Source of the DNA: a virus | DNA length: 50,679 bases | IMG/VR virus record: IMGVR_UViG_3300030102_002459 | Coordinates: 1-50,679 of that record | Direction: 5' to 3' (one strand) | Shown: positions 455 through 49,959 of the stretch, one piece after another | How positions within the stretch are numbered: the stretch's first letter is position 1 | Layout of the letters: each line of letters begins with the position of its first letter | Position numbers and translations under genes: made by a program | Notes under the pieces: generated by a model | The model's database searches: none | What the model was told of the DNA's origin: nothing | Seen by the model: the letters and a program-made list of their open reading frames with translations, nothing else

Positions 455-589
455 TTAGAACATTCCAAAGTCAGCGTTTAAATCACCTGTTGCAAATTGG
501 ACTATTAAGCCAATAATGCCGAGTGATGCTAGTGTTATATAGCCATAAACAACTACTTTTAGAATTGTATAGTGATTAAATTTTCGCAT
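455..589 (-). CDS. Hypothetical 44-aa single-pass membrane microprotein
   Basis: A 44-aa frame from ATG at 589 to TAA at 455-457. Residues about 10-32 form one hydrophobic segment (VVVYGYITLASLGIIGLIV), after a short basic N-terminus (MRKFNHY), so an inner-membrane protein with one helix is likely. It lies directly downstream of promoter-like copy 1, with 14 bases between the -10-like block and the ATG, and would head a unit of at least four small genes. Role unknown; small phage membrane proteins often modify host physiology or block superinfection, but nothing here proves that. Confidence 0.55.
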   Translation of the reverse strand: MRKFNHYTILKVVVYGYITLASLGIIGLIVQFATGDLNADFGMF

Positions 590-603
590 AATTATTTTAT
601 ATT

Positions 604-633
604 ATTATCCAATAGTTATTATATTTTGTTTGT
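604..633 (-). promoter_or_regulatory. Promoter-like element, copy 1 of 6
   Basis: Read on the minus strand: ACAAACAAAA block (ACA at 633-631), 20-base gap, then GGATAAT (610-604). All six copies in this region have exactly 20 bases between ACA and GGATAAT. This copy lies before the 44-aa membrane gene, and the stop codon of the 67-aa gene (619-621) falls inside it. GGATAAT resembles a -10 hexamer. The upstream block does not match the Bacteroidota -33/-7 consensus. Confidence 0.6.
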
Positions 634-822
634 ACAAGTTAATGTAGTGTAGTAATTTTCCCAAACAAGTTGTTTGTCTTCATTGTCAAGAGGTAATAAG
701 TTTTCCACTTCATAACCCACCATTGCAGTTGCAATAGCGTTAATGATTTCACGTTTAAGTATTTCACGATTGACTTCATCAAACGCTTGTTTCCAAGTTT
801 TATATTTAGAATTGTAGTACAT
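619..822 (-). CDS. Hypothetical 67-aa protein
   Basis: The frame is open to an ATG at 927, but the ATG at 822 is preferred. It has the array's ATAACTATG context, and the upstream extension would translate straight through the tRNA-like element at 850-889. The resulting 67-aa protein is helical and charged (KTWKQAFDEVNREILKREI), then acidic (LLPLDNEDKQLVWE). It ends in TCTNKI, whose codons form part of promoter-like copy 1. Family not recognised. Confidence 0.55.
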   Translation of the reverse strand: MYYNSKYKTWKQAFDEVNREILKREIINAIATAMVGYEVENLLPLDNEDKQLVWENYYTTLTCTNKI

Positions 823-849
823 AGTTATATATTTTAAAAAGTTAGTAGA

Positions 850-889
850 TGTCACGGTGAGAATCGAACTCACATTAACCATTGTGACA
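850..889 (-). ncRNA. tRNA-like element: acceptor stem plus canonical T-arm only
   Basis: On the minus strand TGTCAC (889-884) pairs with GTGACA (855-850). Between them, after a 10-base linker, is a perfect T-arm: GTGAG (873-869), loop TTCGATT (868-862), CTCAC (861-857). One unpaired C (856) joins the arms. This is the acceptor/T-arm half of a tRNA without a convincing D-arm or anticodon arm. It could be a degenerate tRNA, a phage attachment-site remnant copied from the 3' end of a host tRNA, a transcript-processing signal, or a terminator-like structure. Seen directly; the role is inference. Confidence 0.5.
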
Positions 890-958
890 ATTATCTGTTC
901 AACATTATTTATACTCGTGATGTACACATTTCAACGCGCGAGTTAAAATGAAGAGTGA

Positions 959-1189
959 TTATATCACATCAACATTTTGTAGAACTTTAGGAATTGAAGT
1001 CGAAGAAGTATATGACTTATATTTTTCCCAGCAATTTAATTTAGTTAAATTATCTTTCATTAGTTCAAAAGCTTTATCATGATTGTATTTGAAAGTTTTT
1101 CCAGATTTGAAAGTAACTTCGATGATAGAGTTTTGACCGATTAGTGATTTGCGAATAACAAATCTTTTTGATTGAATTGAATTTTGCAT
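959..1189 (-). CDS. Hypothetical 76-aa protein
   Basis: A complete 76-aa frame from ATG at 1189 (context ATAACTATG). It is basic at the N-terminus (MQNSIQSKRFVIRKS), followed by alternating hydrophobic/polar residues suggesting a small beta-sheet (SLIGQNSIIEVTFKSGKTFKYN) and a short helix. It lies downstream of promoter-like copy 2 with 36 bases of leader. The fold could be a small SH3/OB-like nucleic-acid binder, which is speculation. No recognised family. Confidence 0.6.
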   Translation of the reverse strand: MQNSIQSKRFVIRKSLIGQNSIIEVTFKSGKTFKYNHDKAFELMKDNLTKLNCWEKYKSYTSSTSIPKVLQNVDVI

Positions 1190-1225
1190 AGTTATTATAT
1201 TTAAGAATTAGTATTTGTTTATTAT

Positions 1226-1255
1226 ATTATCCAGTTTGAGTTTAGTTTTGTTTGT
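1226..1255 (-). promoter_or_regulatory. Promoter-like element, copy 2 of 6
   Basis: Minus strand ACAAACAAAACTAA with ACA at 1255-1253, 20-base gap, GGATAAT at 1232-1226. The upstream block encodes the last residues (HKQN) of the 44-aa gene, whose stop (1242-1244) sits inside the element. Serves the 76-aa gene. Confidence 0.6.
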
Positions 1256-1376
1256 GAATTATTTTATTTAACTCAATATCTACAAGTTCAGATATTTCAT
1301 CATTAGTTAAATGATTATATTCTTGTATGAAGTCAGTGAATAAATCTTCTCGTAGTGTATCGATATCAAGTTTCAT
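1242..1376 (-). CDS. Hypothetical 44-aa acidic microprotein
   Basis: A 44-aa frame from ATG at 1376 to TAA at 1242-1244. It is acidic and helical: MKLDIDTLREDLFTDFIQEY, then NDEISELVDIELNKI. It follows promoter-like copy 3 with 25 bases of leader, and its 3' end overlaps copy 2. Acidic helical microproteins are common among phage inhibitors of host enzymes, but the sequence alone gives no target. Confidence 0.5.
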   Translation of the reverse strand: MKLDIDTLREDLFTDFIQEYNHLTNDEISELVDIELNKIIHKQN

Positions 1377-1401
1377 AATTTAATTATTTTAAGTTTATTA
1401 T

Positions 1402-1431
1402 ATTATCCAATTAGTTATTAGTTTTGTTTGT
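1402..1431 (-). promoter_or_regulatory. Promoter-like element, copy 3 of 6
   Basis: Minus strand TTTACAAACAAAAC (ACA at 1431-1429), 20-base gap, GGATAAT at 1408-1402. Unlike other copies it lies wholly in an intergenic gap (1377-1486). Serves the 44-aa acidic gene at 1242-1376. Confidence 0.6.
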
Positions 1432-1486
1432 AAAGTGTATATTTGTTTAGTATTTAAAAAATAGTTAGAAGTATAACACTAAATGT

Positions 1487-1651
1487 CTATTTATATTGTT
1501 GAATTATTTTATTTACTTCAATTATATTATTATATTTATTATTAAATAGTATTTCATTATTTGAAGAATTTAGTATTGTAAAGTCATATAACTTATTATT
1601 ATGACAATATTGTATTTGAAATTTAGTTTTTACATTGAAGACATTTAACAT
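1487..1651 (-). CDS. Hypothetical 54-aa Asn/Lys-rich protein
   Basis: A 54-aa frame from ATG at 1651 to TAG at 1487-1489. Very rich in Asn, Lys, Ile and Tyr, as expected from this extremely A/T-rich stretch (MLNVFNVKTKFQIQYCHNNK). It is called because it lies immediately downstream of promoter-like copy 4 (26 bases of leader) in the same layout as its neighbours. The low complexity makes it less certain than the others. No family recognised. Confidence 0.42.
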   Translation of the reverse strand: MLNVFNVKTKFQIQYCHNNKLYDFTILNSSNNEILFNNKYNNIIEVNKIIQQYK

Positions 1652-1677
1652 ATTTAGTATTTTTTATTTACATTATT

Positions 1678-1707
1678 ATTATCCAAATTGACTTGTGTTT
1701 TGTCTGT
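1678..1707 (-). promoter_or_regulatory. Promoter-like element, copy 4 of 6
   Basis: Minus strand TTTTACAGACAAAAC (ACA at 1707-1705), 20-base gap, GGATAAT at 1684-1678. It lies 8 bases past the stop of the 78-aa gene and serves the 54-aa gene. Confidence 0.6.
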
Positions 1708-1715
1708 AAAATTAT

Positions 1716-1952
1716 TTATATAATTATATAGTCTAAATCAAATTCGTCAGTTAGTTGAGTGAATTTAATATTGTTAGCTGCAAGAGCTTCTATAGTTTCA
1801 GGCAGGCATTGTATAGTGTATTCGAACAGTATAAATGTATGATCTGAAAAGCTAGATTGATCCAGGTTGTTGTCAGCAAAGAACTGGTCACAGTCATCAA
1901 TGTAATGGATCTCGTCATTGGGTAGTAGTGATTGTAAAGTATTGTAATTCAT
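1716..1952 (-). CDS. Hypothetical 78-aa acidic protein
   Basis: A complete frame of 78 aa from ATG at 1952. Acidic (NDEIHYIDDCDQFFADNN ... DEFDLDYIII) with few basic residues. A central segment SDHTFILFEYTIQCL looks like a beta-strand core. The strongly negative surface would suit a DNA mimic or an inhibitor of a nucleic-acid-binding host protein, but that is speculation. Preceded by promoter-like copy 5 with 19 bases of leader. Its codon use is less biased than the adjacent 54-aa gene, supporting a real gene. Confidence 0.6.
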   Translation of the reverse strand: MNYNTLQSLLPNDEIHYIDDCDQFFADNNLDQSSFSDHTFILFEYTIQCLPETIEALAANNIKFTQLTDEFDLDYIII

Positions 1953-1971
1953 ATATATATTATTTAGTATT

Positions 1972-2001
1972 ATTATCCGGGTTGATTAGTATTTGATCTG
2001 T
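1972..2001 (-). promoter_or_regulatory. Promoter-like element, copy 5 of 6
   Basis: Minus strand ACAGATCAAA (ACA at 2001-1999), 20-base gap, GGATAAT at 1978-1972. The stop codon of the 24-aa frame (2005-2007) is three bases upstream. Serves the 78-aa gene. Confidence 0.6.
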
Positions 2002-2004
2002 GAT

Positions 2005-2079
2005 TTAGTTAGTCTGGTTAGTTACAGTATTGTACATGTTGATCAGTTGATCGGCAGTAAACATAGTTAGATAGTGCAT
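2005..2079 (-). CDS. Possible 24-aa microprotein
   Basis: A 24-aa frame from ATG at 2079 (context ATAACTATG, identical to the starts at 1189 and 822) to TAA at 2005-2007: MHYLTMFTADQLINMYNTVT and four more residues. It lies where each neighbouring promoter-like copy has a gene, 29 bases below copy 6. An internal Met at residue 6 is another possible start. It may be a leader peptide or a genuine microprotein. Too short to judge coding bias. Confidence 0.38.
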   Translation of the reverse strand: MHYLTMFTADQLINMYNTVTNQTN

Positions 2080-2108
2080 AGTTATATTGTTTAAGTTATT
2101 ACATATAT

Positions 2109-2138
2109 ATTATCCAGGTCAATCAGTAATTAGTCTGT
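2109..2138 (-). promoter_or_regulatory. Promoter-like element, copy 6 of 6 (outermost)
   Basis: Minus strand TTTTTACAGACTAA (ACA at 2138-2136), 20-base gap, GGATAAT at 2115-2109. It is the copy nearest the divergent control region and the likely entry point for minus-strand transcription of the array. Confidence 0.6.
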
Positions 2139-2141
2139 AAA

Positions 2142-2414
2142 AAGTCAAAGGGTAGGGGGTAACCGGCTGAAAATCAAGGGTATATGCGTAAAAATCTAGA
2201 AAAACAGGGGGACCCGGTAAAATCAAAATCGTTTTTGTAACAGACTGATAATCAAAATGTTAGGGGGTAGCACTATACTTCTAAATATCTAACGACTTTT
2301 TTTGTGACACTAGCCTTATAAGTAGTATTAGTAACAGGCTTATGTCACACTGAGGTAAAAAAACAGTGAAATCTGTAAGTATATATATTATAAACGAATT
2401 TTAAAAATAAGTAT
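2142..2414. promoter_or_regulatory. Divergent control region, possible replication origin
   Basis: No gene is visible here. The region separates the minus-strand micro-gene array from the plus-strand late genes. In an otherwise very A/T-rich sequence it carries G-runs on the plus strand: GGG 2150-2152, GGGGG 2155-2159, GGG 2178-2180, GGGGG 2207-2211, GGGGG 2263-2267. Two are in the shared context TAGGGGGTA (2153-2161, minus its last base variation, and 2261-2269). AATCAA occurs three times (around 2172, 2221 and 2250). A large inverted repeat follows at 2303-2349, then an A/T-rich stretch TATATATTATAAACG (about 2381-2395) that could hold the promoter for the fibre gene. An origin, operator cluster or packaging site would all fit; which one is unknown. 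Confidence 0.5.
2303..2349. repeat. Inverted repeat (imperfect stem-loop) before the fibre gene
   Basis: TGTGACA (2303-2309) is the exact inverse of TGTCACA (2343-2349). Inside, TAGCC (2311-2315) pairs with GGCT plus TA (2337-2342) around one bulged base, leaving a loop of about 21 bases. It could be a protein-binding operator or a leader hairpin. The same arms, TTGTGACA and ATGTCAC, flank the tRNA-like element at 849-889. Confidence 0.5.
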
Positions 2415-5050: not shown

Positions 5051-6607
5051 ATGTCAGACAAAATTGTCAAAAACCTTAACTTTGGGGAAGACGCAAAGAA
5101 CAAGGTATTTAAAGGTATAGAAAAACTCACAAAAGCTGTTAGCTCCACACTAGGAGCTAGCGGCCAATGTGTTATTTTAGAAGATGATCAGGGTAAACCT
5201 GTCATAACAAAAGACGGTGTAACTGTTGCAAACAGTATTATACTGCTAGACCCAGTAGAAAATATGGGTGCTACGCTTCTAAAAGAAGCTGCTAGAAAAA
5301 CTGTGCAAGAAGCTGGCGATGGAACGACAACAGCTACAGTACTAGCGCACTCAATTTTAACAGAGGCCTATAAAAATTTAGATAAAGATAACACTCGTAA
5401 CATTAAAGAAGGTATAAATAAAGCCGTTAATAATGTTGTTAAATACTTAGAGAAAAAAGCAATACAAGTTGAAGGTACTATGCTAGACGACGTTGCGACT
5501 ATTAGTTGTAACAATGATAAAGAGCTAGGTAAAATAATCGGGGAAGCGTTTAAAGCTGCTGGTGAAAACGGCGTTGTTGTTATGGAGCCAACGACCGAAG
5601 ATACTACAGAGCTTGAGTTAGTTGACGGTGTTCAATACGAAAAAGGTTTAACTAACTCACATTTTGTAACAAGCAAAGACAAACGAGTAGCTGAGCTTGA
5701 TAATCCATTAGTATTGCTATTAGAGTCACCCATAGAGTCTGTGCGTAAAATACAGTCGGTGCTAGAGTATGTAATTAAAAATAAGAAACCTTTACTTATA
5801 GTAGGTGATTTAGAAACTGAAGTGTTAGCAACGCTAGCAATGAATAGAGTTAAAGGTAATATAAAAGTTAATGTAGTAAATGCACCTACATACGGTATAA
5901 ACAAAAAAGATACACTTTCTGATTTAGCTGTATTAACCGGTGCTACTGTTGTTAACGAAGATCTTGGTGACGACTTAGATGTTATTAACCCTGATTTTTT
6001 AGGTACATGCTGGAAAAGTATTACTAATGACACAGAAACTATATTACAAGTAGATACATCTACTGATGAAATAAAAGAATTAATTAGTTCAGTAAAAGAT
6101 TTAATAGCTAAAGCTAAAGCACCCGGTGAAGTTATACGTCTTGAAAAACGTTTAGCTAGACTTTCAGGTAAAGTGTCGGTTGTAAAAGTTGGAGCAAATT
6201 CAGAGATTGAATTAAAAGAAAAATCGGATAGGGTCGAAGATGCTATCTGTGCTACTAAAGCCGCGGTAAAAGAAGGTATAGTGTCAGGAGGTGGTATAGC
6301 TTTGCTTGATGCGTCTAACAAAACCAAAGCTAAAAGCGTTGGTGAAAAGATTCTTCTTGAAGCTATTAAAGCACCGTTTAAAACTATACTAAATAATGCT
6401 GGACTGGAAGAGGTTGGTACGCCCGAAGAAGGTATGGGTGTTAATGTAATTACAGGCGACATTGTTAATATGATCGATAAAGGTATTATTGATCCTTTGC
6501 TTGTAACTAAAAGTGCACTCAAACACGCGGCTTCAGTGGCTACCACTATATTATCTACAGATTGTGTAATCAATAATTTAAGAGTTGGTGATGAAAGCAA
6601 TAGGTAG
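5051..6607 (+). CDS. groEL: GroEL-like chaperonin (phage-encoded, divergent)
   Basis: 518 aa, slightly short of the ~545 aa bacterial protein. Clear chaperonin signatures: [10 protein letters not shown] near residue 55, the nucleotide-binding [16 protein letters not shown] (Asp at about 90, equivalent to Asp87 of E. coli GroEL), and [22 protein letters not shown] in the C-terminal equatorial domain, where an Asp provides the catalytic carboxylate. The middle apical domain is much more divergent than the equatorial one. The usual GGM-rich C-terminal tail is missing (it ends [11 protein letters not shown]). It overlaps groES by 17 bases, so the two are co-translated. It would fold phage virion proteins in the cytoplasm. 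An AATTAAATTTAATT palindrome (5032-5045) lies just before the start. Identification as a chaperonin is very secure. Confidence 0.93.
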
Positions 6608-6854
6608 AAATATAATTATAAAAAAGAAAAAAGAAGATACCGTTAAAAAAACAGACGGTGGTCTTATGTTGACTGGCTCACAGCGAGTTGATATACGTTA
6701 CAAAGAGGCAACTGTGCTTCACTGCGGTGATGATGTTAAAGGTATAGAAGAAGGTAAAACTATATTCTATGATAAAAACGCAAGTCACCGCCTTGAAGTT
6801 GGCAAAGAAGTTTTCCATGTTATACGTGATATTGATGTAGTTGTTATATTATGA
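6591..6854 (+). CDS. groES: GroES-like co-chaperonin
   Basis: 87 aa from ATG 6591; upstream TTG/GTG codons in frame are less likely starts. The N-terminus [12 protein letters not shown] matches the LxDRVLVK strand of GroES. DGGLMLTGSQRVDIRYKEAT covers the mobile loop and next strands, and ATVLHCGDD ... EGKTIFYDKNASHRLEVGKE ... VIRDIDVVVIL follows the standard order ending in a DI(V)(V)V strand. It overlaps the end of groEL and the next gene (4 bases). It would cap the phage or host GroEL ring. Short length and a reduced mobile loop are the departures from the bacterial protein. Confidence 0.85.
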   Translation: MKAIGRNIIIKKKKEDTVKKTDGGLMLTGSQRVDIRYKEATVLHCGDDVKGIEEGKTIFYDKNASHRLEVGKEVFHVIRDIDVVVIL

Positions 6855-8791: not shown

Positions 8792-8947
8792 ATGAAATCA
8801 AAAGGTTTAGGTGATGACATAGCTAAGTTTACTAAAGCTACTGGTATTAAAACTATAGTAGATAGAGTATCTGAAGGTCTAAACATAAACTGTGGCTGTA
8901 ATAACAGACAAGAGTGGTTTAACGAAAAATTTCCATATAGAAACTAA
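8792..8947 (+). CDS. Small conserved phage protein with CGC motif (51 aa)
   Basis: A 51-aa frame directly after the preceding TAA, ending in TAATG with the next gene's start. The order GLGDDIAKFTKATGIKTIVD, then NCGCNNRQEWFNEKFPY, matches a short protein seen in many phage genomes (GLGDxIxKxTxATGIKxxVxxx...CGCxxRxxxLNxxFPY). The CxC pair might bind metal. Function unknown. Coding is supported by perfect TAATG packing on both sides. Confidence 0.65.
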   Translation: MKSKGLGDDIAKFTKATGIKTIVDRVSEGLNINCGCNNRQEWFNEKFPYRN

Positions 8948-10873: not shown

Positions 10874-11100
10874 TGAGTACTGTTATAAGAAAAATCAGTA
10901 TTGGTTCTGATTACAAGAACGATGCTATGCACTATGCGTTAGGCCAACAAGTCTACGGTGGTCATGAGATATCACATATTTTGTTTGAAGACGAAGACGC
11001 TTCTTATAACATATTCATAAAGAAAAACAATGAGGTGTTGCCATGGAAGAAATTTAACTCTAACATGGCTATATCCGTTGAGTATGATTTAGAATATTAA
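10873..11100 (+). CDS. Hypothetical 75-aa protein
   Basis: 75 aa with TAATG overlaps at both ends. The pattern IRKISIGSDYKNDAMHYALG ... GGHEISHILFEDEDASYNIF ... suggests a small beta-sheet domain. The phrase 'VIRKISIGSDYKNAMHY..GQ' is familiar from other marine phage genomes but carries no assigned function. It sits between the coiled-coil gene and the tandem GroES-like gene. Confidence 0.6.
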   Translation: MSTVIRKISIGSDYKNDAMHYALGQQVYGGHEISHILFEDEDASYNIFIKKNNEVLPWKKFNSNMAISVEYDLEY

Positions 11101-11708
11101 TGAAAAGCGTTTTTGATTTTATAGTTATACCAGACGGAAAAAGGTATAACAATGAAGTTGATCTAAACGGCGATAAACTTATAGTTAATTCTAGTATAGA
11201 AAACTTTAAGTTAATTAACAGAACAGCAACTGTACTTACGGTTCCAACTGCTTTTCAAACGCCGATACAAGAAGGTGATAAGATAATTATACACCACAAT
11301 GTGTTTAGAAGATATTATAACCATCAAGGTAAAGAAGTTGATAGTAGTAAAACGTTTAACGACAATAGATACTTGTGTCAATACGATCAAATATATCTTT
11401 ACAAGCGTATGGTAAAATGGTTGCCAGTTCGTAACCATTGTTTTATTATGCCTATAAAAAATAACGATACATGGTCTAAAGAACCAGAACAAAAAAACAA
11501 AGGTATAGTAAAAATAGGTAATAAAACACTAGATTCACTTGGTATATATGAAGGTGATTTAGTTGGTTTTAAATCTAACAGAGAGTTTGAGTTTATTATA
11601 GATAAACAAAGACTATATTGTATGCAATCAAATGATATTTTAGTTAAATATGAGTTCAAAGGAGACGAGAAAGAATATAATCCAAGCTGGGCGAAAAGCA
11701 GTAGATGA
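11100..11708 (+). CDS. Tandem GroES-like domain protein (second co-chaperonin candidate)
   Basis: 202 aa read as two GroES-like barrels. First: FDFIVIPDGKRY ... INRTATVLTVPTAFQTPIQE then GDKIIIHHNVF, ending NRYLCQYDQIYLYK (about 1-102). Second: HCFIMPIKNNDTW ... KGIVKIGNKTLDSLGIYEGD then LVGFKSNREFEFIIDKQRLY and CMQSNDILVKYE (about 113-185). The second closely follows the GroES order GxVxxVG ... GDxVxF ... L-x-M-x-x-x-D-I-L-x-x-x-E. It overlaps the small terminase candidate by 59 bases. It may be a dedicated co-chaperonin for capsid folding, analogous in role to T4 gp31, or a structural protein that reuses the fold. Assigned by pattern only. Confidence 0.55.
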   Translation: MKSVFDFIVIPDGKRYNNEVDLNGDKLIVNSSIENFKLINRTATVLTVPTAFQTPIQEGDKIIIHHNVFRRYYNHQGKEVDSSKTFNDNRYLCQYDQIYLYKRMVKWLPVRNHCFIMPIKNNDTWSKEPEQKNKGIVKIGNKTLDSLGIYEGDLVGFKSNREFEFIIDKQRLYCMQSNDILVKYEFKGDEKEYNPSWAKSSR

Positions 11709-30467: not shown

Positions 30468-33400
30468 ATGTTTAAATATAAATTAGGCGAAGATATTTTT
30501 AATGTTCCAGCTGAAGAGGTAGATATTTTTGAAATGGAAACTCCTGATGCTATCAGAATTACAGACGAAATAACAGATCCAGAAGAGGGAAAGACAAACG
30601 GTGTTGCGGAAGAGGGTGCAACTGTAACACCGAAAACCGGGCCAGCACCCGAGATAATAGACGACACTGGAGCTCCGGAAGTTACGGGCTTCAAGCCGGT
30701 AGAATCTTCATTGGGATCAAAGTGGACTGACAACTTTGTAGAATTAGAAGGAATACAGTTTGATGATGGAGCTATAGGTTTAGGCGCTATAGAGCTAGAA
30801 GGTGTTACTGTTACAGCCGATCAATATAAAAAAGTAGAACAAGATATAGAAAACGAAGGTGCTAAACAAGTTGAAGAACAAGTTATAGCTATGAGCCCTG
30901 GTGACATTAGCGGTTTAGTAAAGTTTTTATCAGATAAAGGTAATGATCTTTTTGGTAAACCTGAAAAAGCTGAAGATATAAGTACAACAGCTAGTCTGTA
31001 TGGCACGACTGTAAATTCGTTGGTTCAATTAAGTGGTGTAGATGATAGGGCTAATTACGTTTTGTCTGCGTTTACTAATCAAATACCTGATAATGTTTTT
31101 TTAAATATATTAGGTGAAGACGCTGGCAGAAGAGCTATACAAGCTAATAGAGATTATTTTAAAAGAACAAACGAACAGTACGATTATATTAATAGTTTAA
31201 ATTTACCTACGCTGGGATTTACAGACATAGGTAAAAAAGAAGGATTATCTAAAGTAGGTACTGGCTTGGCGGCTACGCTTAACGGTATATCTGCATTTGC
31301 TACTTCAGCGGCTACGTCTGTTGCTACAGGTGGTGTTGGTCTTGCTACGGATATAGGTGCTAACGCTATAAAAAGTTTTAACGATACTAAAGCTCAGTCG
31401 TTAGGGTTAACATCTGAAGAGCTGTTTGCTTCTGGTCAAGGTGAAATATTAATACCAAGCTCTATAGCAGTTTTGCAATTTGGTCTAGAAAGAATTGGTA
31501 TAAAAAAAGTAGGTGAGTATTTTAATAAATTACCAGCTGGTAAAACTAAAGGTTTATTTTCTATGTTAAACGTAGGAAACGCAGAAGCTATACCTGAATA
31601 CCTGCAAGGTGGTTTAGATATATTTAATGAAGGGCTTGCTCAAGGTTTAAATGCTGACGATGTTAGTGTAAAAGTTTTAGATTATTTAACTTCACCTGAT
31701 GGTATTGAAAATTACCTTCAAGGATTAGTTGGTGGCGCAGGTGTCGCAGGTGTAGGCTCTGCTGCAAGAAAACTTAGAACTAATAAAGATAACGAAGCTA
31801 TATCTAAAATTATTAGAGATCTTAATGATTTAGAGAATAGTAAGTTTAGAAAAAATTTAACAGCTGAAGATATAGCTGGTATTAATACAGCTCAAGAGGA
31901 ACTTAGATTTAATTTAACTCAGATTATAGACAAAAGCAATGCTTTAGCTGGAACTTTATCTGATGCACAGATAGAAGAACTAAATACTAATTCTGATTTT
32001 TTAACAAGCTCTGCAGATAAAATAAATGAAATAGAAGCATCTGATGAGTTTACGCAGAAAGATAAAGAGGTTTTATTACAAACTATAGAACAACAAAGAG
32101 AAGTAGCGTCTCAAAACATATTTGATATACGCAGTGAAGCTGAAAAGTTTTATAGTAATTTGTTTAATGTAAGAGCTGCCGCTGAAAAAAGAGACGATAT
32201 TAAAGTTCTTGATTTTGCTAATGCTGATGAAATACAAACATACTTAAATGATAATCCTGATCTTGTGGCTGAAGGTGGTAGAGTAGCTGCTTCTGGTGAA
32301 CAAGGATTTTTTATACCTGGTGCTGGAGATAGTCCTGGCACTATTATAATCAACAGAGAAAAATCTTTAAATGAAAAAGCTGTTAATGTAGCTAGCCATG
32401 AATTTTTACACTACGTGTTAGACAGTACTTTAAAAAATAATCCTGCTGCCGCTATAAATCTAGGTAATGCATTGTTAAAAGAGCTAGATAAAATAGATGT
32501 AAACAAAATAAAAGATAGCAACTTTAAAAAACGGATGGAGCTTTACAAAGATGAAAAAGTAGAGATTCAAATGGAAGAAGCTTTAACTTTATTTTCAGAC
32601 GCTTTAGCTACAGGTGATATACAGTTGAACGAAGATATATCAACTATGCTTGGTGACAGGTTTCGTAGGGTTTTAGGTAGAGTCGGCGTCAAAGTAAAAT
32701 TCAATAAAGGTAGCGATGTAGTTAATTTTGTAAAAGACTTTAATAAAAGTTTAGAAAAAGGTGTACTAACAAAAGCTCAACAAGCCGTAGCTCAAGAAGG
32801 CGCAGAGGGTGAATTAATACCACAAGCAGAGCAACAAGCCGACGAGCAAATAATTAAAGAGTCAAGATCTGAAGAGGCTTCACAGCGTGTTCAAGAAATA
32901 TACGATCAGCAAGGTACAGCTGGATCGTTTGAAATAATAGAACAGTTTAAACCTATTACTAGCAAGCTAGTTGAGCGTAGGTCTGAAGCTCCTGGATTTG
33001 ATAGACAACTACTTACAGACGAAATAGAAACAGGGCAGCGTGGTATAATAGATTTAATTAGCGAATATGATCCTGACTCAGGTGTACCGCTAGCGGCTTA
33101 CATAAATAAGTTTTTACCAGCTAGAGCTATTGAAGCTTCTAATAGAATTTTAGGTGAAGAGTTTACAGAAGATGTTACAGAAGCTAGAGGCGTTGTAGCA
33201 GAGGAAACAGATGTTGAAGTTACTGAAAAACCTAAAGGCCCAAGAAAACCTACCGAAACAACTATATTTAGCGATACAGTATTAAATAATTTAGGTGTAG
33301 AAAATAAAGCTGAAGCTGAAAAACAAATATCAGATGCTACTAGCAAAGCGTTTGAAGGTCAAGATATTACAAGGTTTGGTCAAACTAAAAACGTACCTGT

Positions 33401-36400
33401 TGCTGTTGCAGAGATATATGGTAAAATGTTTGGTGTAAATCCAGAAACTATATACGACAAGAAACGTAACTACTCTAAAAAAGATGCTGAAGGTTTAACT
33501 CGTATAAAGCAATACTTAATAGACAATGCTGCTAGTGATTTTGCTAGACTACCAAGGACTAAAGATGACTTTGGTAAAGCTACGTTTATACCTAACAATG
33601 TAATGAACGCTCTGTATACAGATGGTGAGCTAACAGGTACATTAAAAGATTATTTAGATCTTATTAGAGAAAAACCTGTTAAACCTATTTACAGAGATAG
33701 AGTAGGTCAAACTATACGAGGATTATTTAATACTAGTATTAGAAACCGTATGGTTGAAGATATTATACCTAGTAAACCTGAAAGAGCTAGAGCTGGTGCT
33801 AAGTTTAGTAAAGCTAAAGCTAAACCTAAAACAGGTATTAATGCTGAAATAGAAACTATAGTTGGTGGGCGTCTTCCTTTTACACCGGAAGGTAATCAAG
33901 AGTTTAGAGATTTTTTAGCAGTAGAATTACCTAAATACTTAGGTAAAGATGTTACAAAAATTATAAAACCTGGTGATGTAGCTGGTGCTGGTAATTCTGC
34001 TGTTGGTAGTAGGAAAACTAGTGGTGCTATAGGTAGAGGTTTTAGATTTATAGGTAATAGACAAAGAACTCAACAGTTTATACCAGAAACAGATCAAGCG
34101 CTAGAAGCAAACGAGGTTATGGATCTTGAAGTGGTTCGTAAAGAAATTGATCAAGCGGTTCAATTGTTGTCGCCTGAACAAGTAAAAGATATAAATGCTG
34201 CAACATCTAGTCAGACTAGAGCCAGCATGAAAAAGAACGAAGCTAATAAAGACTCTATAAAACGTGGTAGACGTTTAGTATTGGACGCTTTATTTAAAGC
34301 TGTTCAAGCTGATCCTAAAAACATTATACCTATACGCGAACTTTTATATAATCAAAACGCTAACACTAGTTTTGGTAGAAAGTTTGCTACGGTGATATCT
34401 ACAGAAACAAATTTAAAACCAAAAGAAAACACTTGGGAAGAACATGTTTATCAGTTTGGTAATTGGGCTAAGCGTACCTTGCAAGCATTTAAAACAGGTG
34501 ATCCTAATATAGTAAACAATTGGTTGCAATGGGCTGATGATAATTATTATCAGGAAGTTACAGGTAAACCTACACAAGCAGTTGTTGATGGTGTGTATGA
34601 AGGTTGGAAAGCTAAAGCGCAAGAACATCCATATTTAAAACAATCATTAGACGAAGCGTTTAAAACAGGTGATTTTAGTAAAGTACCTTCATCAGACATA
34701 AGAAAGTATAATGAGTTTTTTACTTTAAATCCTAACATTAGAACTAGAGACGGTATAACTGACGCTCAAAGATATAATGTAGAAGTGCCTGCTAGTTTGC
34801 AAAATAATAAAGCTGTAGTTAATGAGCAAGGTAAACTTATATATCAACAACTAATAGGTTACATTACGCCACAACAAGCTAAAGAACAAATACAAGAGTT
34901 TTCTAAGTTAGCTCCTAGTATATTAAAGGCTTCTAAATCAAACAACAAAAAACTACCGCCTGGTATTAGATTAGAAGACCCAGGTACGTTTGATCAGTTT
35001 GGTATGGTTGACGTTGTTACTAAACAAATGTTCCCTGCAATAGCAGACTTAGACGTAGTTAAAGCAGGTAGACTAACAGCTTACGAAGCTCTTGATCCTG
35101 ACCAGCAGTTTGAAGTTATGGCTCAAGTTCCTGGTAGTCCAGTGCAAGAAGCTATAGCTGTTATGTCTATATCAGATCAAGCTATTAGATTTTCACGTAA
35201 CGCTGATGCGCCTAACAAAGGTATAAGCGTATGGGACTTTGATGATACACTTGCTACAACTAAATCTAATGTACTATACACTATGCCAGACGGAACTAAA
35301 GGCACATTGACAGCTGAGCAGTTTGCTAAACAAGGTGAAGATCTGTTAGATCAAGGTGCTGAGTTTGATTTTAGTGAGTTTGAGAAAGTTACCAAAGGAG
35401 CTAAAGGTCCTATGTTTGAAAAAGCTGTAGCTCGTAATAGAAAGTTTGGTAACGATAACGTGTTTATTCTTACAGCCAGAACACAAGCGGCCGCAGAACC
35501 TATACACCAGTTTTTAAAAGCAATAGGTTTAGATATACCACTTAGAAATATTGTAGGTCTAGGTAACAGTACGCCTGAAGCTAAAGCTCGTTGGGTTGTA
35601 GGTAAAGCCGCTGAAGGTTACAATGACTTTTATTTTGCAGATGATGCTTATAAAAATGTTAAAGCAGTACAAGATGCTCTAAGTGTACTAGATGTTAAAT
35701 CAAAAGTAAGACAAGCATATGTTAAACACAGTAAGTCAGAGGCTTTGGACAAAGGATTCAACGATATACTAGAGCAAACAACTGGTATTGCGTCGGAAAA
35801 AGAATACAAAAAAGTTAAAGCAGAAGTAGCAGGTGCATCGCGTGGTAGAGTGTTTAGAGGTATACCATACTCAGCTCAAGACTTTGTAGGATTGTTATAT
35901 GAAACCTTAAGTAAAGGTAAACTTGGTGATTCACAAATGGCTTGGTATAAAGAGCATTTAATAAAACCTTACGCTAGAGCAATGAACGATATAGATAATG
36001 CTCGTTTAAATATGATGCAAGATTATAGAGCTCTTAAAAAACAATTAGGTGTAGTACCAAAAGATCTGCGTAAAAAAGTTATAGGTGAACCGTATACCCG
36101 TGAGCAAGCAGTACGTGTTTATATATGGAACAAACAAGGTACAGAAGTACCTGGCATCAGCAAGCAAGATTTAAAAGATCTTACTAAATATGTTCAAGAC
36201 AATGCTGAATTACAAGTATTTGCGGATCAAATAATTGCTATACAAAAAGGTGATCAATACGCTAGTCCTCAAACTGGTTGGCCTGCTGGTAGTATTACTA
36301 CAGATATATTGCGCAGTATTAACACGGGTGTTAGAGCTAAATACTTACAGCAGTGGCAAGATAATGTAGATGTTATATTCTCTGAAAAGAATATGAATAA

Positions 36401-37754
36401 GCTTGAGGCTGCATATGGTAAACCATACCGTAAAGCTATGGAAAATATGCTACAACGTATGAAAACAGGTCGTAACAGAACATTTTCTGACGATAGTTTA
36501 ACAGGTAGATTTACAGACTGGTTGCAAGGTAGTATTGGTACTATTATGTTCTTCAACACTAGATCAGCATTACTACAAACAATATCTTCTGTAAACTTTA
36601 TAAACTTTACAGACAACAATCCGCTTGCAGCAGCTAGAGCTTTTGCAAATCAAAAACAATACTGGTCAGACTTTATGACATTAATAAATTCTGACTTTTT
36701 AAAAGCTAGAAGATCTGGTTTAAGATTTAACGTAACTGAAGCTGACATTGCTAACATGGCTAAAGAAGGTGGACCAAGAGCTGTAGTAAATAGATTGTTG
36801 CAATTAGGTTTTGCACCCACACAAATAGCAGATAGTTTTGCTATAGCATCAGGTGGCGCTACGTTTTATAGAAACAGGATAAAATCTTTAATGAAACAAG
36901 GAATGTCTAAAACTGAAGCTGAAGCTCAGGCATTTGAAAACTTTAGGGAAAATGCTGAAGAGTCTCAGCAATCTGCAAGGCCAGATCGTATATCAATGCA
37001 ACAAGCAGGACCATTAGGTCGTTTGATATTAGCGTTTGCTAACACACCAGCTCAGTACGCAAGACTTACAGATAAAGCTATACGTGATCTCAAAAATAAT
37101 AGAGGTGATGCTAAAACAAATATAAGTAAAATTATATATTACACTACAGTGCAAAACCTTATATTTAACGCTTTACAGCAAGCTATATTTGCCTTAGCAT
37201 TTGATGACGAAGAACCAGAAGACGAAGAAAAGAAAGATAAGTATATTAGTATCGCTAATGGTATGGCTGACTCGTTACTACGTGGAACAGGTTTTGCTGG
37301 TGCGGCTGTATCTGTGGGTAAAAATGCGATCATACGAGTCTTTGACGAAATGGAAAAGAAACAACCTAAACTTGAAAAAGTAGGTTATGAATTAACTAAA
37401 ATATCACCACCAATATCTGCTAAATTATCAAGAATAAACCAAGCAGCAAGATCATATCAATGGGATAAAGATGAAATGATTAACGGTGGTTGGGGATTAG
37501 ACAATCCAGCTTACTTAGCAGCAGGTAATGTAGTATCAGCTTTAACAAATGTGCCGATAGATAGAGGTATAAAGAAAATGAATAACATAGTGAAAGCTAC
37601 TGATACAGACTTAGAAGCCTGGGAAAGACTAGCATTAATTGGTGGTTGGCAAGACTGGGAAATAGGATTAGGTGAAGAAACAAAACAAAATAAACCGCAG
37701 CCCAGAAAAACTAAAAGAAAAGTAGTTAAAAAACGTAAAGTTATAAAAAAATGA
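30468..37754 (+). CDS. Giant internal virion / polyvalent protein with zincin and HAD signatures
   Basis: 2428 aa, the largest gene. Position and size match the T7 gp16-like ejection protein. Recognisable parts: acidic low-complexity linker (about 25-75); Gly/Ala-rich hydrophobic stretch (about 265-300); a zincin helix VASHEFLHYVLD (HEFLH 644-648) with a candidate third ligand in MEEALTLFSD (703-704); a block around GVPLAAYINKFLPARAIEAS (about 870); and an HAD-type phosphatase domain with WDFDDTLA (Asp1590, Asp1592), FILTART (Thr1669) and FYFADDAYKN (Asp1725-1726). The long helical C-terminal module (NNPLAAARAFANQKQYWSDF ... GPLGRLILAFANTPAQYARL) occurs at the end of internal proteins in many marine podoviruses. 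It ends in a Lys/Arg tail. Domains like these fit the 'polyvalent protein' concept, in which several enzymes are delivered with the DNA. Enzymatic activity is inferred. Confidence 0.75.
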   Translation: MFKYKLGEDIFNVPAEEVDIFEMETPDAIRITDEITDPEEGKTNGVAEEGATVTPKTGPAPEIIDDTGAPEVTGFKPVESSLGSKWTDNFVELEGIQFDDGAIGLGAIELEGVTVTADQYKKVEQDIENEGAKQVEEQVIAMSPGDISGLVKFLSDKGNDLFGKPEKAEDISTTASLYGTTVNSLVQLSGVDDRANYVLSAFTNQIPDNVFLNILGEDAGRRAIQANRDYFKRTNEQYDYINSLNLPTLGFTDIGKKEGLSKVGTGLAATLNGISAFATSAATSVATGGVGLATDIGANAIKSFNDTKAQSLGLTSEELFASGQGEILIPSSIAVLQFGLERIGIKKVGEYFNKLPAGKTKGLFSMLNVGNAEAIPEYLQGGLDIFNEGLAQGLNADDVSVKVLDYLTSPDGIENYLQGLVGGAGVAGVGSAARKLRTNKDNEAISKIIRDLNDLENSKFRKNLTAEDIAGINTAQEELRFNLTQIIDKSNALAGTLSDAQIEELNTNSDFLTSSADKINEIEASDEFTQKDKEVLLQTIEQQREVASQNIFDIRSEAEKFYSNLFNVRAAAEKRDDIKVLDFANADEIQTYLNDNPDLVAEGGRVAASGEQGFFIPGAGDSPGTIIINREKSLNEKAVNVASHEFLHYVLDSTLKNNPAAAINLGNALLKELDKIDVNKIKDSNFKKRMELYKDEKVEIQMEEALTLFSDALATGDIQLNEDISTMLGDRFRRVLGRVGVKVKFNKGSDVVNFVKDFNKSLEKGVLTKAQQAVAQEGAEGELIPQAEQQADEQIIKESRSEEASQRVQEIYDQQGTAGSFEIIEQFKPITSKLVERRSEAPGFDRQLLTDEIETGQRGIIDLISEYDPDSGVPLAAYINKFLPARAIEASNRILGEEFTEDVTEARGVVAEETDVEVTEKPKGPRKPTETTIFSDTVLNNLGVENKAEAEKQISDATSKAFEGQDITRFGQTKNVPVAVAEIYGKMFGVNPETIYDKKRNYSKKDAEGLTRIKQYLIDNAASDFARLPRTKDDFGKATFIPNNVMNALYTDGELTGTLKDYLDLIREKPVKPIYRDRVGQTIRGLFNTSIRNRMVEDIIPSKPERARAGAKFSKAKAKPKTGINAEIETIVGGRLPFTPEGNQEFRDFLAVELPKYLGKDVTKIIKPGDVAGAGNSAVGSRKTSGAIGRGFRFIGNRQRTQQFIPETDQALEANEVMDLEVVRKEIDQAVQLLSPEQVKDINAATSSQTRASMKKNEANKDSIKRGRRLVLDALFKAVQADPKNIIPIRELLYNQNANTSFGRKFATVISTETNLKPKENTWEEHVYQFGNWAKRTLQAFKTGDPNIVNNWLQWADDNYYQEVTGKPTQAVVDGVYEGWKAKAQEHPYLKQSLDEAFKTGDFSKVPSSDIRKYNEFFTLNPNIRTRDGITDAQRYNVEVPASLQNNKAVVNEQGKLIYQQLIGYITPQQAKEQIQEFSKLAPSILKASKSNNKKLPPGIRLEDPGTFDQFGMVDVVTKQMFPAIADLDVVKAGRLTAYEALDPDQQFEVMAQVPGSPVQEAIAVMSISDQAIRFSRNADAPNKGISVWDFDDTLATTKSNVLYTMPDGTKGTLTAEQFAKQGEDLLDQGAEFDFSEFEKVTKGAKGPMFEKAVARNRKFGNDNVFILTARTQAAAEPIHQFLKAIGLDIPLRNIVGLGNSTPEAKARWVVGKAAEGYNDFYFADDAYKNVKAVQDALSVLDVKSKVRQAYVKHSKSEALDKGFNDILEQTTGIASEKEYKKVKAEVAGASRGRVFRGIPYSAQDFVGLLYETLSKGKLGDSQMAWYKEHLIKPYARAMNDIDNARLNMMQDYRALKKQLGVVPKDLRKKVIGEPYTREQAVRVYIWNKQGTEVPGISKQDLKDLTKYVQDNAELQVFADQIIAIQKGDQYASPQTGWPAGSITTDILRSINTGVRAKYLQQWQDNVDVIFSEKNMNKLEAAYGKPYRKAMENMLQRMKTGRNRTFSDDSLTGRFTDWLQGSIGTIMFFNTRSALLQTISSVNFINFTDNNPLAAARAFANQKQYWSDFMTLINSDFLKARRSGLRFNVTEADIANMAKEGGPRAVVNRLLQLGFAPTQIADSFAIASGGATFYRNRIKSLMKQGMSKTEAEAQAFENFRENAEESQQSARPDRISMQQAGPLGRLILAFANTPAQYARLTDKAIRDLKNNRGDAKTNISKIIYYTTVQNLIFNALQQAIFALAFDDEEPEDEEKKDKYISIANGMADSLLRGTGFAGAAVSVGKNAIIRVFDEMEKKQPKLEKVGYELTKISPPISAKLSRINQAARSYQWDKDEMINGGWGLDNPAYLAAGNVVSALTNVPIDRGIKKMNNIVKATDTDLEAWERLALIGGWQDWEIGLGEETKQNKPQPRKTKRKVVKKRKVIKK

Positions 37755-44026: not shown

Positions 44027-44986
44027 TTACCAGATATCTTCAAAGTCTTCTCCTTCATTAGCCTTTGAATAATCAGTTGGCCGAATAGCAAAGAAATCTG
44101 TATGAGTATGACCACCGGTAAGATGATAAAACCAATCAAGGTTATCAGCCGCTTTAGTATCAACCTCGAAGAAGGCGAGATATCCAAGCTCTTGTAGTTT
44201 TTCATTTGTTCTTTTTCTTATAAATTGTTTAAGGTCGTATGCTTTTAGATTTTCAATATCACCCATTTCAAACATCTTGTCAATATACTTTTCTTCTAAG
44301 TCTACCATTGTTTTAGCAGCTTCAACTATATCTTCTTTACAATTTTCTAGTAAACCAGGCGTTTCGTTACACATGTCACGAAAAAGTTTACAACCCATTT
44401 TGCTGTGCAATGATTCATCACGCACACTCCATTTCATTTGTTGACCTATACCTTTTAATAAGTTTCTTAACTGAAAACTATAGAGTACAGCAAATGCAGA
44501 GTACAAGCTAACCCCTTCAGCAAAAGCGCTAAAGACAGCAAGAGAGCGCCCAATCCCGCTAGGATCGGTGCCGCTATAACTAACCAGATTGTCAAACCTT
44601 CCAGCAGTTGCCGGCTCGTGTAAAAAAGCTTCATAATCTTCAAGACCTAATGTTTCGTTTAAATAACTATAAGCTACAGCATGTATTGTCTCTTGTGAGC
44701 CAAACATCATAGCCATCTGTTGTATCTCATGTTTAGGAAACCATGATACAACTTTCTGTGTCCAGTAGTCTGATACAGCACACTCTGTTTGGGCAAAACC
44801 GAGTAATATGTTTCCGACTAAATTCTTCTCTTTATCATTTAATTTTTCCTTCCAATCTTTAATGTCACCTTGCATAGGTATTTCAGTGTGTAACCAAAAT
44901 GCCTGAGCTTGCTTTAACCAACCCTCTGTGTAGTAATCAGGGTATTCAAACGGTTTGTACGCTATGCGCTCATCAAATAATCCCAT
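44027..44986 (-). CDS. nrdB: Ribonucleotide reductase class I, small (beta) subunit
   Basis: 319 aa, a ferritin-like helical protein. Metal ligands by alignment with E. coli (D84, E115, H118, E204, E238, H241): Glu68 (QTEC), Glu99 and His102 (QETIH), Glu157 (FAEGV), Glu191 and His194 (RDESLH). The Tyr equivalent to Tyr122 is Tyr106 (HAVAY). The first ligand is Glu instead of Asp, at the exact spacing (31 residues before Glu99). The C-terminus (GEDFEDIW) gives the aromatic/acidic tail that binds NrdA. It generates the radical for NrdA. The cofactor (Fe/Fe with Tyr radical, Mn/Fe or Mn/Mn) cannot be decided here. Confidence 0.92.
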   Translation of the reverse strand: MGLFDERIAYKPFEYPDYYTEGWLKQAQAFWLHTEIPMQGDIKDWKEKLNDKEKNLVGNILLGFAQTECAVSDYWTQKVVSWFPKHEIQQMAMMFGSQETIHAVAYSYLNETLGLEDYEAFLHEPATAGRFDNLVSYSGTDPSGIGRSLAVFSAFAEGVSLYSAFAVLYSFQLRNLLKGIGQQMKWSVRDESLHSKMGCKLFRDMCNETPGLLENCKEDIVEAAKTMVDLEEKYIDKMFEMGDIENLKAYDLKQFIRKRTNEKLQELGYLAFFEVDTKAADNLDWFYHLTGGHTHTDFFAIRPTDYSKANEGEDFEDIW

Positions 44987-45147
44987 TACTTAAACACTTC
45001 ATATGCCACGTCTATAAATGGCAGGTAAAATACATATGCTGTTTGTGTAGGTTCTTCGTATGTTCTCACGCCGAATAATATACCTGGGTAAAACCCAAAA
45101 GATAACGACCAAGTCTTATCGACCTTGTCCTCTGTATTGTTTGACAT
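44986..45147 (-). CDS. 53-aa conserved phage microprotein upstream of nrdB
   Basis: ATG 45147 to TAA 44986-44988, TAATG-coupled to nrdB. Sequence core: WSLSFGFYPGILFGVRTYEE then YVFYLPFIDVAYEVF. I know this arrangement (FGFYPGILFGxRTY ... YVxYLPFxD) as a small gene in marine phages. Aromatic-rich and amphipathic; possibly membrane-associated. Function unknown. Confidence 0.65.
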   Translation of the reverse strand: MSNNTEDKVDKTWSLSFGFYPGILFGVRTYEEPTQTAYVFYLPFIDVAYEVFK

Positions 45148-45250
45148 AATTTTTACTTTGTTTATTGTTACTGTTTTTTGTTTTAGCGTGGACGCCTGGC
45201 CTACGCACTTTTGATTTTTCTTTGTATGCGAATAAATTTAATTTAGCCAT
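45116..45250 (-). CDS. 44-aa basic phage microprotein (RPGVH...YRGQG motif)
   Basis: ATG 45250 to TAA 45116-45118. MAKLNLFAYKEKSKVRRPGV then HAKTKNSNNKQSKNYVKQYR and GQGR. The (K/R)RPGVHxKxKxS...KSKNYxKxYRGQG(R/K) pattern is one of the commonest tiny phage proteins; its role is not known. It overlaps the next gene by 32 bases in another frame. Very basic. Confidence 0.68.
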   Translation of the reverse strand: MAKLNLFAYKEKSKVRRPGVHAKTKNSNNKQSKNYVKQYRGQGR

Positions 45251-45416
45251 ACACTTTTATATTATATTTATCGTGTTGTTCAACTATATCTTTATACTTT
45301 AAAAAACCTCGTTGATTAACTGACCATTTAATAAACTTATCGATCTGTCTTTCAGCATACTTACGCCGAGCTACATCTTTTGCTTGTCGCGTATCAACTG
45401 TATTGTTCTGTCGCAT
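45243..45416 (-). CDS. 57-aa basic hypothetical protein
   Basis: ATG 45416 to TAA 45243-45245, overlapping the endonuclease gene (46 bases) and the 44-aa gene (8 bases). Helical and basic: RQNNTVDTRQAKDVARRKYA then ERQIDKFIKWSVNQRGFLKY. It fills the gap between two supported genes. No family recognised. Confidence 0.5.
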   Translation of the reverse strand: MRQNNTVDTRQAKDVARRKYAERQIDKFIKWSVNQRGFLKYKDIVEQHDKYNIKVYG

Positions 45417-45826
45417 TCGGCTTGATTTTGTGGTTTATATAAAGTTATGTTAGGAAATTGTTCAGTGACTAATTTTTTAAATAACTTCCAACGCATTGGA
45501 AAAGACTCGTTAGCCCTGCCTTTGCATTCAATAATAAAATTGTCACCGATAAAGTCTGGAGTGTATTTAATAGGTAATATTCGTTTTCCTCCTCTGTTTT
45601 TATAATCTCCTTTACCATTTGCTTGTCGTGCATAACACTCGTTTTCAAAATGAAAACCATTTAATAAAACAAACGTTTCTCCTTCGTACTTAGCTTTAAT
45701 CTTTGCTTTTTTCAAAGCCATATACATATATCGCTCAAGGCCTGAGGCAAAGTTGATACCATCATATGATATCCGCCTTGCCTGTACTGGTCCTCGTTTT
45801 TTACGCTTATACTTCTTGCGTATCAT
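45371..45826 (-). CDS. PD-(D/E)XK endonuclease (T7 endonuclease I / resolvase-like)
   Basis: 151 aa, basic N-terminus (MIRKKYKRKKRG). Nuclease motifs: FASGLERYMYMAL (Glu31), ILPIKYTPDF (Asp91), FIIECKGR (Glu100, Lys102), followed by FPMRWKLFKKLVTEQFP. The E ... PD ... ExK spacing is that of PD-(D/E)XK nucleases such as T7 endonuclease I, which resolves branched DNA before packaging. It is in the replication/recombination arm. Exact substrate is unknown. Confidence 0.75.
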   Translation of the reverse strand: MIRKKYKRKKRGPVQARRISYDGINFASGLERYMYMALKKAKIKAKYEGETFVLLNGFHFENECYARQANGKGDYKNRGGKRILPIKYTPDFIGDNFIIECKGRANESFPMRWKLFKKLVTEQFPNITLYKPQNQAECDRTIQLIRDKQKM

Positions 45827-46103
45827 AATGTAAACCTTCGTTACCGTTTTGACCTATGATATCCATGCGGCGTAACATTGCCTCTTCTATTTCATCAGTC
45901 AAGCATCGTCGCGCTGCTTCAATATAAAGTAACGCATCCATTATTTCTTCTTGAACATCAACTAAAAAACGATCTAGATCTTTAACTTGACCTTCAATTT
46001 CTTCTAGCATTGTAGCACCATATTTTTTTTGGCCTATAATACTACGTTCGTCCATCTTCCTTAGCACGGCCTGTACTATCTTGTCTTTGGTTTTAATCTG
46101 CAT
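45807..46103 (-). CDS. Small MazG-like nucleotide pyrophosphohydrolase candidate
   Basis: 98 aa, helical. KKYGATMLEEIEGQVKDLDR then VDVQEEIMDALLYIEAARRC holds the EE..MDAxxY pattern seen in all-alpha NTP pyrophosphatases of the dATP/dGTP (DUF550/MazG) type (KYG...EExxDxxxY). It overlaps both neighbours. It may cleave non-canonical or purine (d)NTPs to tune the nucleotide pool during replication. Only the metal-binding helix pair is visible. Confidence 0.6.
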   Translation of the reverse strand: MQIKTKDKIVQAVLRKMDERSIIGQKKYGATMLEEIEGQVKDLDRFLVDVQEEIMDALLYIEAARRCLTDEIEEAMLRRMDIIGQNGNEGLHYDTQEV

Positions 46104-46851
46104 CTTTCACAAATGTTCCGTTTACCATACTTCCAGATCTAGCACTGATTTCATTGTAAGCGGACTCAATACACCGCTCAATGTTATGGCCACCCAATTT
46201 GGCCAGGTTGGTGAGTACCACAACGGAATCACCAATAGCATCAATAAACTCAGCTTCATCGTCTTTAAGTATTGCTTGTCCGAGTTCGCCGATCTCTTCC
46301 ATAAGTTTAACAAATTGTGTTTTAGTATCTCCACTATCATATATACCTCGTTTATCAGCCCAGTCACGAATACTGTCAAAGACAGTTGCGCCTGTAACTT
46401 CTGTAGCCAGTTCAGCTATAAAAGCTTCATGATAAGCCTTGTTATAAATGTAACATCTCTCGTTATTGTACATAGACGTCTTTGCATTGTGTACAATCCA
46501 TGGTATTGTAGTTGAATTGATTTCGAATTTACCGTGTAGAGTTTCCCAGCTGAGCCCAATGTTATCCATCAGAAGCCCTTTAAGTTTATTAGCCGGACAC
46601 GGAAAGGTTGACGTTTGTTCTGTAGCGTTTATATTCATTTTCTTAAATAGATTTTTATATAATTTTCTGTCGACCTTATAGCCATAAGACTTTTGAAGTT
46701 CTATTTCGCGGTCTGATATAAAATCTATATCGTTTGACTGCTCAAGAACTTCATACTCTCCCTCCTTATAGCCTTGCATAAGGGTTACTCGGGTATTAAG
46801 ATCACGTGTAACACCTATCTTTTTACCTGGTATGTGGTATAAATAATACAT
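46093..46851 (-). CDS. GIY-YIG-like domain fused to a MazG domain
   Basis: 252 aa. Residues 1-75 resemble a GIY-YIG nuclease domain: YYLYHIPGKKIGVTRDLNTR (GIY-like strand, KIGVT in place of YIG, catalytic-type Arg21) and ISDREIELQKSYG with a candidate Glu49. Residues 80-150 are an unassigned linker. Residues 155-250 are a MazG pyrophosphohydrolase: LMEEIGELGQAIL (Glu185, Glu186, Glu189), then EFIDAIGDSVVVL (Glu201, Asp204), the EExxE...ExxD metal site. It probably hydrolyses (d)NTPs or alarmones. The nuclease part may be structural rather than active. Two MazG-type genes in a row is notable. Confidence 0.68.
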   Translation of the reverse strand: MYYLYHIPGKKIGVTRDLNTRVTLMQGYKEGEYEVLEQSNDIDFISDREIELQKSYGYKVDRKLYKNLFKKMNINATEQTSTFPCPANKLKGLLMDNIGLSWETLHGKFEINSTTIPWIVHNAKTSMYNNERCYIYNKAYHEAFIAELATEVTGATVFDSIRDWADKRGIYDSGDTKTQFVKLMEEIGELGQAILKDDEAEFIDAIGDSVVVLTNLAKLGGHNIERCIESAYNEISARSGSMVNGTFVKDAD

Positions 46852-46856
46852 TTAAA

Positions 46857-49451: not shown

Positions 49452-49455
49452 TTAA

Positions 49456-49949: not shown

Positions 49950-49959
49950 ATTAATTGGT

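Follow-up and report, generated by a model that had tools for sequence, protein, structure and literature searches.

Six two-block elements at the left end of a podovirus genome are, as judged from their sequence, very probably sigma-type promoters, and it is rather probable that the class to which they belong (here class I) comprises the early promoters of flavobacterial podoviruses and is recognized by the host's core polymerase together with a factor supplied by the phage. The window, that is the whole stretch of DNA analysed, corresponds to the entire IMG/VR record IMGVR_UViG_3300030102_002459 (50,679 bases). It belongs to a podovirus, and its terminase has 62% identity to that of MW202828 (an uncultured podovirus), about 46% to those of the Flavobacterium elemo phages, and further matches in phages of Cellulophaga, Tenacibaculum and Maribacter. 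The phage also encodes GroEL and GroES homologues (5051-6607 and 11100-11708, both on the plus strand).

As the original prediction had it, the minus strand carries six copies of the pattern ACA(A/G)A(C/T)nAA-N14-GGATAAT, with exactly 20 bases from ACA to GGATAAT in all six, and a small ORF is found 14 to 36 bases past the end of each GGATAAT block:

2109-2138, minus strand: putative class I promoter, copy 1 (upstream block from 2138 down to 2130, GGATAAT at 2115-2109, predicted +1 at 2102)
2005-2079, minus strand: 24-aa ORF after copy 1, doubtful as a gene
1972-2001, minus strand: putative class I promoter, copy 2 (predicted +1 at 1965)
1716-1952, minus strand: 78-aa ORF after copy 2
1678-1707, minus strand: putative class I promoter, copy 3 (predicted +1 at 1671)
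1487-1651, minus strand: 54-aa ORF after copy 3
1402-1431, minus strand: putative class I promoter, copy 4 (predicted +1 at 1395)
1242-1376, minus strand: 44-aa ORF after copy 4
1226-1255, minus strand: putative class I promoter, copy 5 (predicted +1 at 1219)
959-1189, minus strand: 76-aa ORF after copy 5
604-633, minus strand: putative class I promoter, copy 6 (predicted +1 at 597)
455-589, minus strand: 44-aa ORF after copy 6

The further claim of one promoter per micro-gene holds approximately, as each of the six ORFs is preceded by a copy but at least two other minus-strand ORFs (77-337 and one beginning near 822) are not. Likewise, the bases between the two blocks had been described as variable; in the relatives this is true of about 7 of them, and the upstream block there is longer, TTACAAACTAAATACGA. 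Between the micro-genes, at about 850-960 of the minus strand, there is also a tRNA-like acceptor and T-arm remnant (GTGAG TTCGATT CTCAC), for which neither ARAGORN nor Rfam returned a call.

A chance origin of the six elements was ruled out by Markov controls and by an independently trained matrix. GGATAAT alone is not rare, occurring 8 times in the window against 6.5 expected, and six of these eight occurrences belong to class I copies; when dinucleotide-Markov sequences were generated, the full two-block pattern was absent from all 200 versions of the window and turned up once in 5000 versions of bases 1-2400. A weight matrix trained on other contigs only recovered the six copies with scores of 21.9-36.5 bits, and no other match of 14 bits or more was present in the 50.7 kb. 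A plain sigma-70 scan of the array region, with 24 sites against 18 expected, was not informative.

The pattern is not confined to this record, and a search of related phages, which had been proposed along with the prediction, revealed arrays across the family with both gap and strand conserved. Taken together, about 27 related genomes contain 182 distinct class I sites, with the consensus TTACAAACTAAATACGA-N7-TGGATAATA; the gap is constant in 178 of 181 sites, nearly all the sites of a genome lie on one (early) strand within the early region, and Markov controls gave no match. A search allowing mismatches in the records of the terminase relatives yielded arrays in G011 and G044, with a nearly silent reversed-pattern control, while a stricter form of the motif, scanned across IMG/VR, matched 119 stretches, many of them multi-copy, and the same terminase was present in 33 of the 38 records tested among them. 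These data support class I as a putative promoter class common to uncultured podoviruses related to the phages of Flavobacterium and Cellulophaga. Positions 5, 6, 13 and 23 of the motif (counted from the A of ACA as position 0) shift together within a genome (z 7-15) and most spacer bases hardly do so, as is expected for a motif that co-evolves with its reader. Two relatives, MW202828 and elemoF, are free of class I, and no array of this type was found among the early genes of the elemoviruses. In MW202828 (L081, about 44,500-50,000) most of the small early genes are preceded instead by a 16-bp palindrome, GTGTCGTTAACGACAC.

The best evidence that the elements are promoters is the agreement of two independent features on a single base. 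Position 36 of the motif, the predicted +1, is a purine in every site (A 0.61, G 0.39), and in 39 of 197 sites an ATG begins exactly at this position, with almost none at the adjacent offsets; because the two features coincide there, transcription likely starts at this base, 7 bases after GGATAAT. About one fifth of the class I sites would therefore yield a leaderless mRNA; the leaderless share in Flavobacterium psychrophilum is 5.5% (PMC9723704). With position 36 as +1, GATAAT falls at -12 to -7 and ACAAAC at -36 to -31, which corresponds to a canonical sigma geometry. Overall, TTACAAACTAAATACGA lies at about -38 to -22 and the -10 block, GGATAATA, at -13 to -6, so that the elements combine two conserved blocks and a fixed spacing with a -10-type block 6-7 bp before the inferred purine start. 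The median distance from position 36 to the ATG is 15.5 nt, compared with 51 nt for random positions in the same regions. Replication origins can lie at divergent junctions, and a repeated array at such a junction could consist of operators, replication iterons or other repeated binding sites that are no promoters. This is the least credible of the readings, as the sites are directional, occupy one strand, keep a fixed short distance to gene starts (the 15.5 vs 51 nt above), and display a purine and an ATG at a fixed offset together with a -10-like hexamer.

The promoters of Flavobacterium, the host group expected for these phages, are of a different kind. The sigma-A of F. psychrophilum recognizes TAnnTTTG at -12 to -5 (PMC9723704), whereas in class I the same positions are occupied by GATAATAT, with ACAAAC near -35, which bears out the earlier statement that the element does not match the Bacteroidota TTTG/TAnnTTTG consensus. 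More generally, class I resembles none of the mapped flavobacterial motifs, which comprise TAnnTTTG variants, sigma-54, TAnnTTGY and an ECF type (PMC9723704), and the full Bacteroidota sigma-A consensus (TAnnTTTG with TTTG/TTG near -33) is not enriched in the class I phages. Class I as a general host promoter is disfavoured by its near-absence from 397 Flavobacteriaceae genomes, of which 4 contain the pattern with up to 2 mismatches, even if a phage super-consensus may be infrequent in hosts by which it is still recognized. In a few marine flavobacteria, isolated exact class I sites are present in the chromosome (L347 322, L348 181 and L349 4273), where they are followed by a TerB-like gene beside parA/parB or by paralogous small secreted-protein genes, possibly phage-responsive genes of the host. 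Two class I copies in G087 were considered as att repeats and rejected as such, each of them standing before a paralogous small secreted-protein gene. A single exact site on the minus strand (L346 3132) was found in contig QCKH01000009.1 (63,985 bases, labelled as a Prochlorococcus SAG), which may be a contaminating phage contig.

The scan for a phage sigma factor that had been suggested with the prediction was successful in the long relatives and negative in the window record. Among the early genes of the relative G075, one (L238:5374-6129, minus strand) gave a sigma-factor match to phrog_351 (E=2e-20) and, weakly, to Pfam regions 2 and 4; the sigma profile matched FliA (1rp3) over nearly its whole length (E=5e-11), the structure model matched sigma factors with a Z of 13, and 26 homologues align end to end. 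Of 44 records, 27 contain the gene, and nearly all the long ones with class I arrays are among them; in the relatives it is located 1-5 kb downstream of the array. It is absent from the motif-free MW202828 and elemoF, and a tblastn search of 50,697 phage records gave no cultured-phage match. As for the window, no terminal repeat was found in the 50,679-base record, and a gene is interrupted at its right end:

49960-50679, minus strand: DUF3799 nuclease gene, incomplete because the record ends within it (the part from the first in-record ATG is 49960-50385)

Because the long relatives measure about 60-70 kb, about 10 kb of the early region are probably missing from the record. In G075 the genes past DUF3799 are ERF and then the sigma factor, two genes beyond DUF3799. 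The phage studied here should therefore have its sigma gene in the lost part, shortly beyond where the record stops on the right, and the gene is probably absent from the window only because the record is incomplete.

A second motif, class II (TnGTAAA-N14-TGTRATWATA), is also bipartite, keeps the same distance to +1 and has in common with class I a RATWATA -10 element that is not host-like. It precedes late genes as well, and some of its predicted starts would be leaderless. Class II was rejected as a host promoter, with a count of 4 against 6 for the reversed control; for TTTG/TAnnTTTG, the positive control, the enrichment was itself modest. The window contains a palindrome at the divergent early/late junction and a class II-like site:

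2304-2348, no strand: 45-bp interrupted palindrome, GTGACAcTAGCC...GGCTtATGTCAC
2353-2383, plus strand: class II promoter-like site, AGGTAA-N15-TGTAAGTATA, preceding a plus-strand operon that starts at 2415

Weaker class II candidates lie near 9237 and 26432, both on the plus strand; weak sites of this class are uncertain because the Markov controls gave 28 matches of at least 12 bits across all genomes. The palindrome has the form GTGACAnTAGCC-(about 20)-GGCTAnTGTCAC and is found in relatives (e.g., G051 1575-1618 and 8876-8919, G075 6745-6788), where it recurs over the ATG (ATGTCAC) of an HTH gene of about 206 aa adjoining the sigma gene; it looks like an operator or an RNA hairpin tied to the HTH protein. 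G-rich blocks of the GGGGNCCCGG and AGGGGGTAGCACTATAC type are conserved at the divergent junction of most relatives and in the window are located at about 2140-2300, with the first class I site on one side and the palindrome on the other.

The two classes are distributed on opposite sides of the sigma gene. On the early strand and within 12 kb of it, 128 of 134 class I sites lie 5' and 26 of 27 class II sites lie 3' of sigma; in 23 of 24 cases a class II site follows the sigma stop codon within 200 nt, mostly at 6-17 nt and before the ERF gene, and in the 950 nt that precede the sigma gene neither class was found (0 of 24). This order is in favour of an unmodified host RNA polymerase that, with a host sigma, would read class I at the onset, after which the phage sigma would switch transcription to class II, the array being an ordinary immediate-early region and class II serving recombination and late genes. 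Small host-takeover genes are usually immediate early, and this, together with the isolated exact class I sites in flavobacterial chromosomes, agrees with such a scheme. We nevertheless regard it as rather unlikely, in view of the dissimilarity of class I to both the sigma-A TAnnTTTG and the alternative motifs (PMC9723704), of the near-absence of the pattern from the 397 Flavobacteriaceae genomes, although a phage super-consensus could be rare there anyway, and of the concerted drift of the motif between phages.

The proposal of a phage-specific, sigma-type promoter class is supported by the conservation of the motif, its fixed gap and strand, its sharp predicted +1 and its near-absence from the hosts, and a phage-supplied factor is favoured because of the shared, non-host-like RATWATA -10, the concerted base shifts and the conserved sigma gene. 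According to this preferred reading, the host core RNA polymerase with a phage-supplied specificity factor would recognize class I, each promoter would serve a single tiny early gene or a small number of them, in some cases with leaderless mRNA, and read-through from the array would reach the HTH gene and the phage sigma gene. The most likely candidate for the factor is the phage's own sigma, to which we give slightly less than an even chance; a virion-delivered factor is less likely than the phage sigma, and a virion factor or RNA polymerase takes up most of the rest. If sigma were needed for its own operon it would require a kick-start, since no class I or II site was found in the 950 nt upstream of it, and the position of class II right behind the sigma stop fits class II, not class I, as the sigma regulon, which favours something already present as the reader of class I. 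Other observations that count against the preferred reading are the isolated chromosomal class I sites, the absence of the sigma gene from the window record, and the lack of correlation between motif divergence and sigma divergence (Mantel r about 0); the motif tracks terminase distance slightly better.

A second sigma-like element is encoded within a large gene of the window:

32880-33200, plus strand: sigma-70-region-2-like domain, about residues 805-911 of a 2428-aa giant virion-type (polyvalent) protein (ORF 30468-37754)

In a PDB profile search this domain matched mostly sigma factors (best E=0.0097), and sigma factors were the top structural matches of its model (pLDDT 83), with a Foldseek probability of 0.97 but E=0.46, and a Z of 9.0 to sigma-B. 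No Pfam sigma match was obtained for the domain. Among the ORFs that rank next for its profile are the phage sigma factors themselves. In a two-step cascade, the injected domain would direct the host core to class I and the resulting sigma would open class II. This is an improbable scheme, considering that the domain was detected in 10 of roughly 25 genomes with class I arrays, so that it cannot be the sole universal reader of class I, and that no -35-binding part was seen in it.

It is quite improbable, too, that class I is read by a phage-encoded or virion-carried RNA polymerase, be it N4-, crAss-, P23-45- or T7-like. The phages show a match to the muzzle domain PF25729, which indicates a distant structural kinship with the crAss-like phages, a lineage known for virion RNA polymerases, and AATACGA...GG in the motif has a superficial likeness to a T7 promoter, but no such polymerase was found: the T7-type profile PF00940 was silent in the phages, as it was in the controls, no convincing DxDGD motif was present in them, and the profile of the giant protein had no PDB match. 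A T7-like promoter starting at GG is also disfavoured, because the purine and the ATG at position 36 place +1 not there but twelve bases after the second G.

In SPO1 and T4, the arrays of early promoters before small host-takeover genes are enhanced versions of the host primary promoters. The class I array is similar to them in its many near-identical, putatively strong promoters, each for one or a few tiny early genes, and differs from them in being unlike the flavobacterial sigma-A TAnnTTTG (PMC9723704). Phage-specific promoters used with a phage sigma are an already known kind of system, as SPO1 (gp28), T4 (gp55) and the group 2 jumbo phages (PMC7824862) also combine a sigma-70-family factor of their own with phage-specific bipartite promoters for the different temporal classes. 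Unlike those, the phages described here are uncultured podoviruses of Bacteroidota with two classes, of which class II begins immediately behind the sigma gene; the upstream block of class I comprises 17 bases, and the sigma dependence is putative. Non-host promoters in temporal classes are found as well in N4 (PMC4496689), in P23-45, with its vRNAP and nvRNAP (PMC10770324), and in the crAss-like phi14:2, and a further trait shared with the virion RNA polymerase systems is the presence of both a giant virion-type protein and a crAss-type muzzle domain; in contrast to these, no RNA polymerase was found here, and what the giant protein contains, in 10 genomes, is a domain resembling sigma region 2. 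Since no cultured-phage match to the sigma factor and no paper were found, class I appears, as far as we could tell, to be a new promoter class.

Marine Bacteroidota phages face hosts with an unusual primary sigma, and how transcription starts there is poorly documented. For this uncultured family, two explicit putative promoter classes can now be proposed, with a sigma factor at their boundary and with start predictions at the level of the single base, which make a direct test possible. Class I also provides a simple sequence marker by which such phages can be found and oriented in metagenomes.
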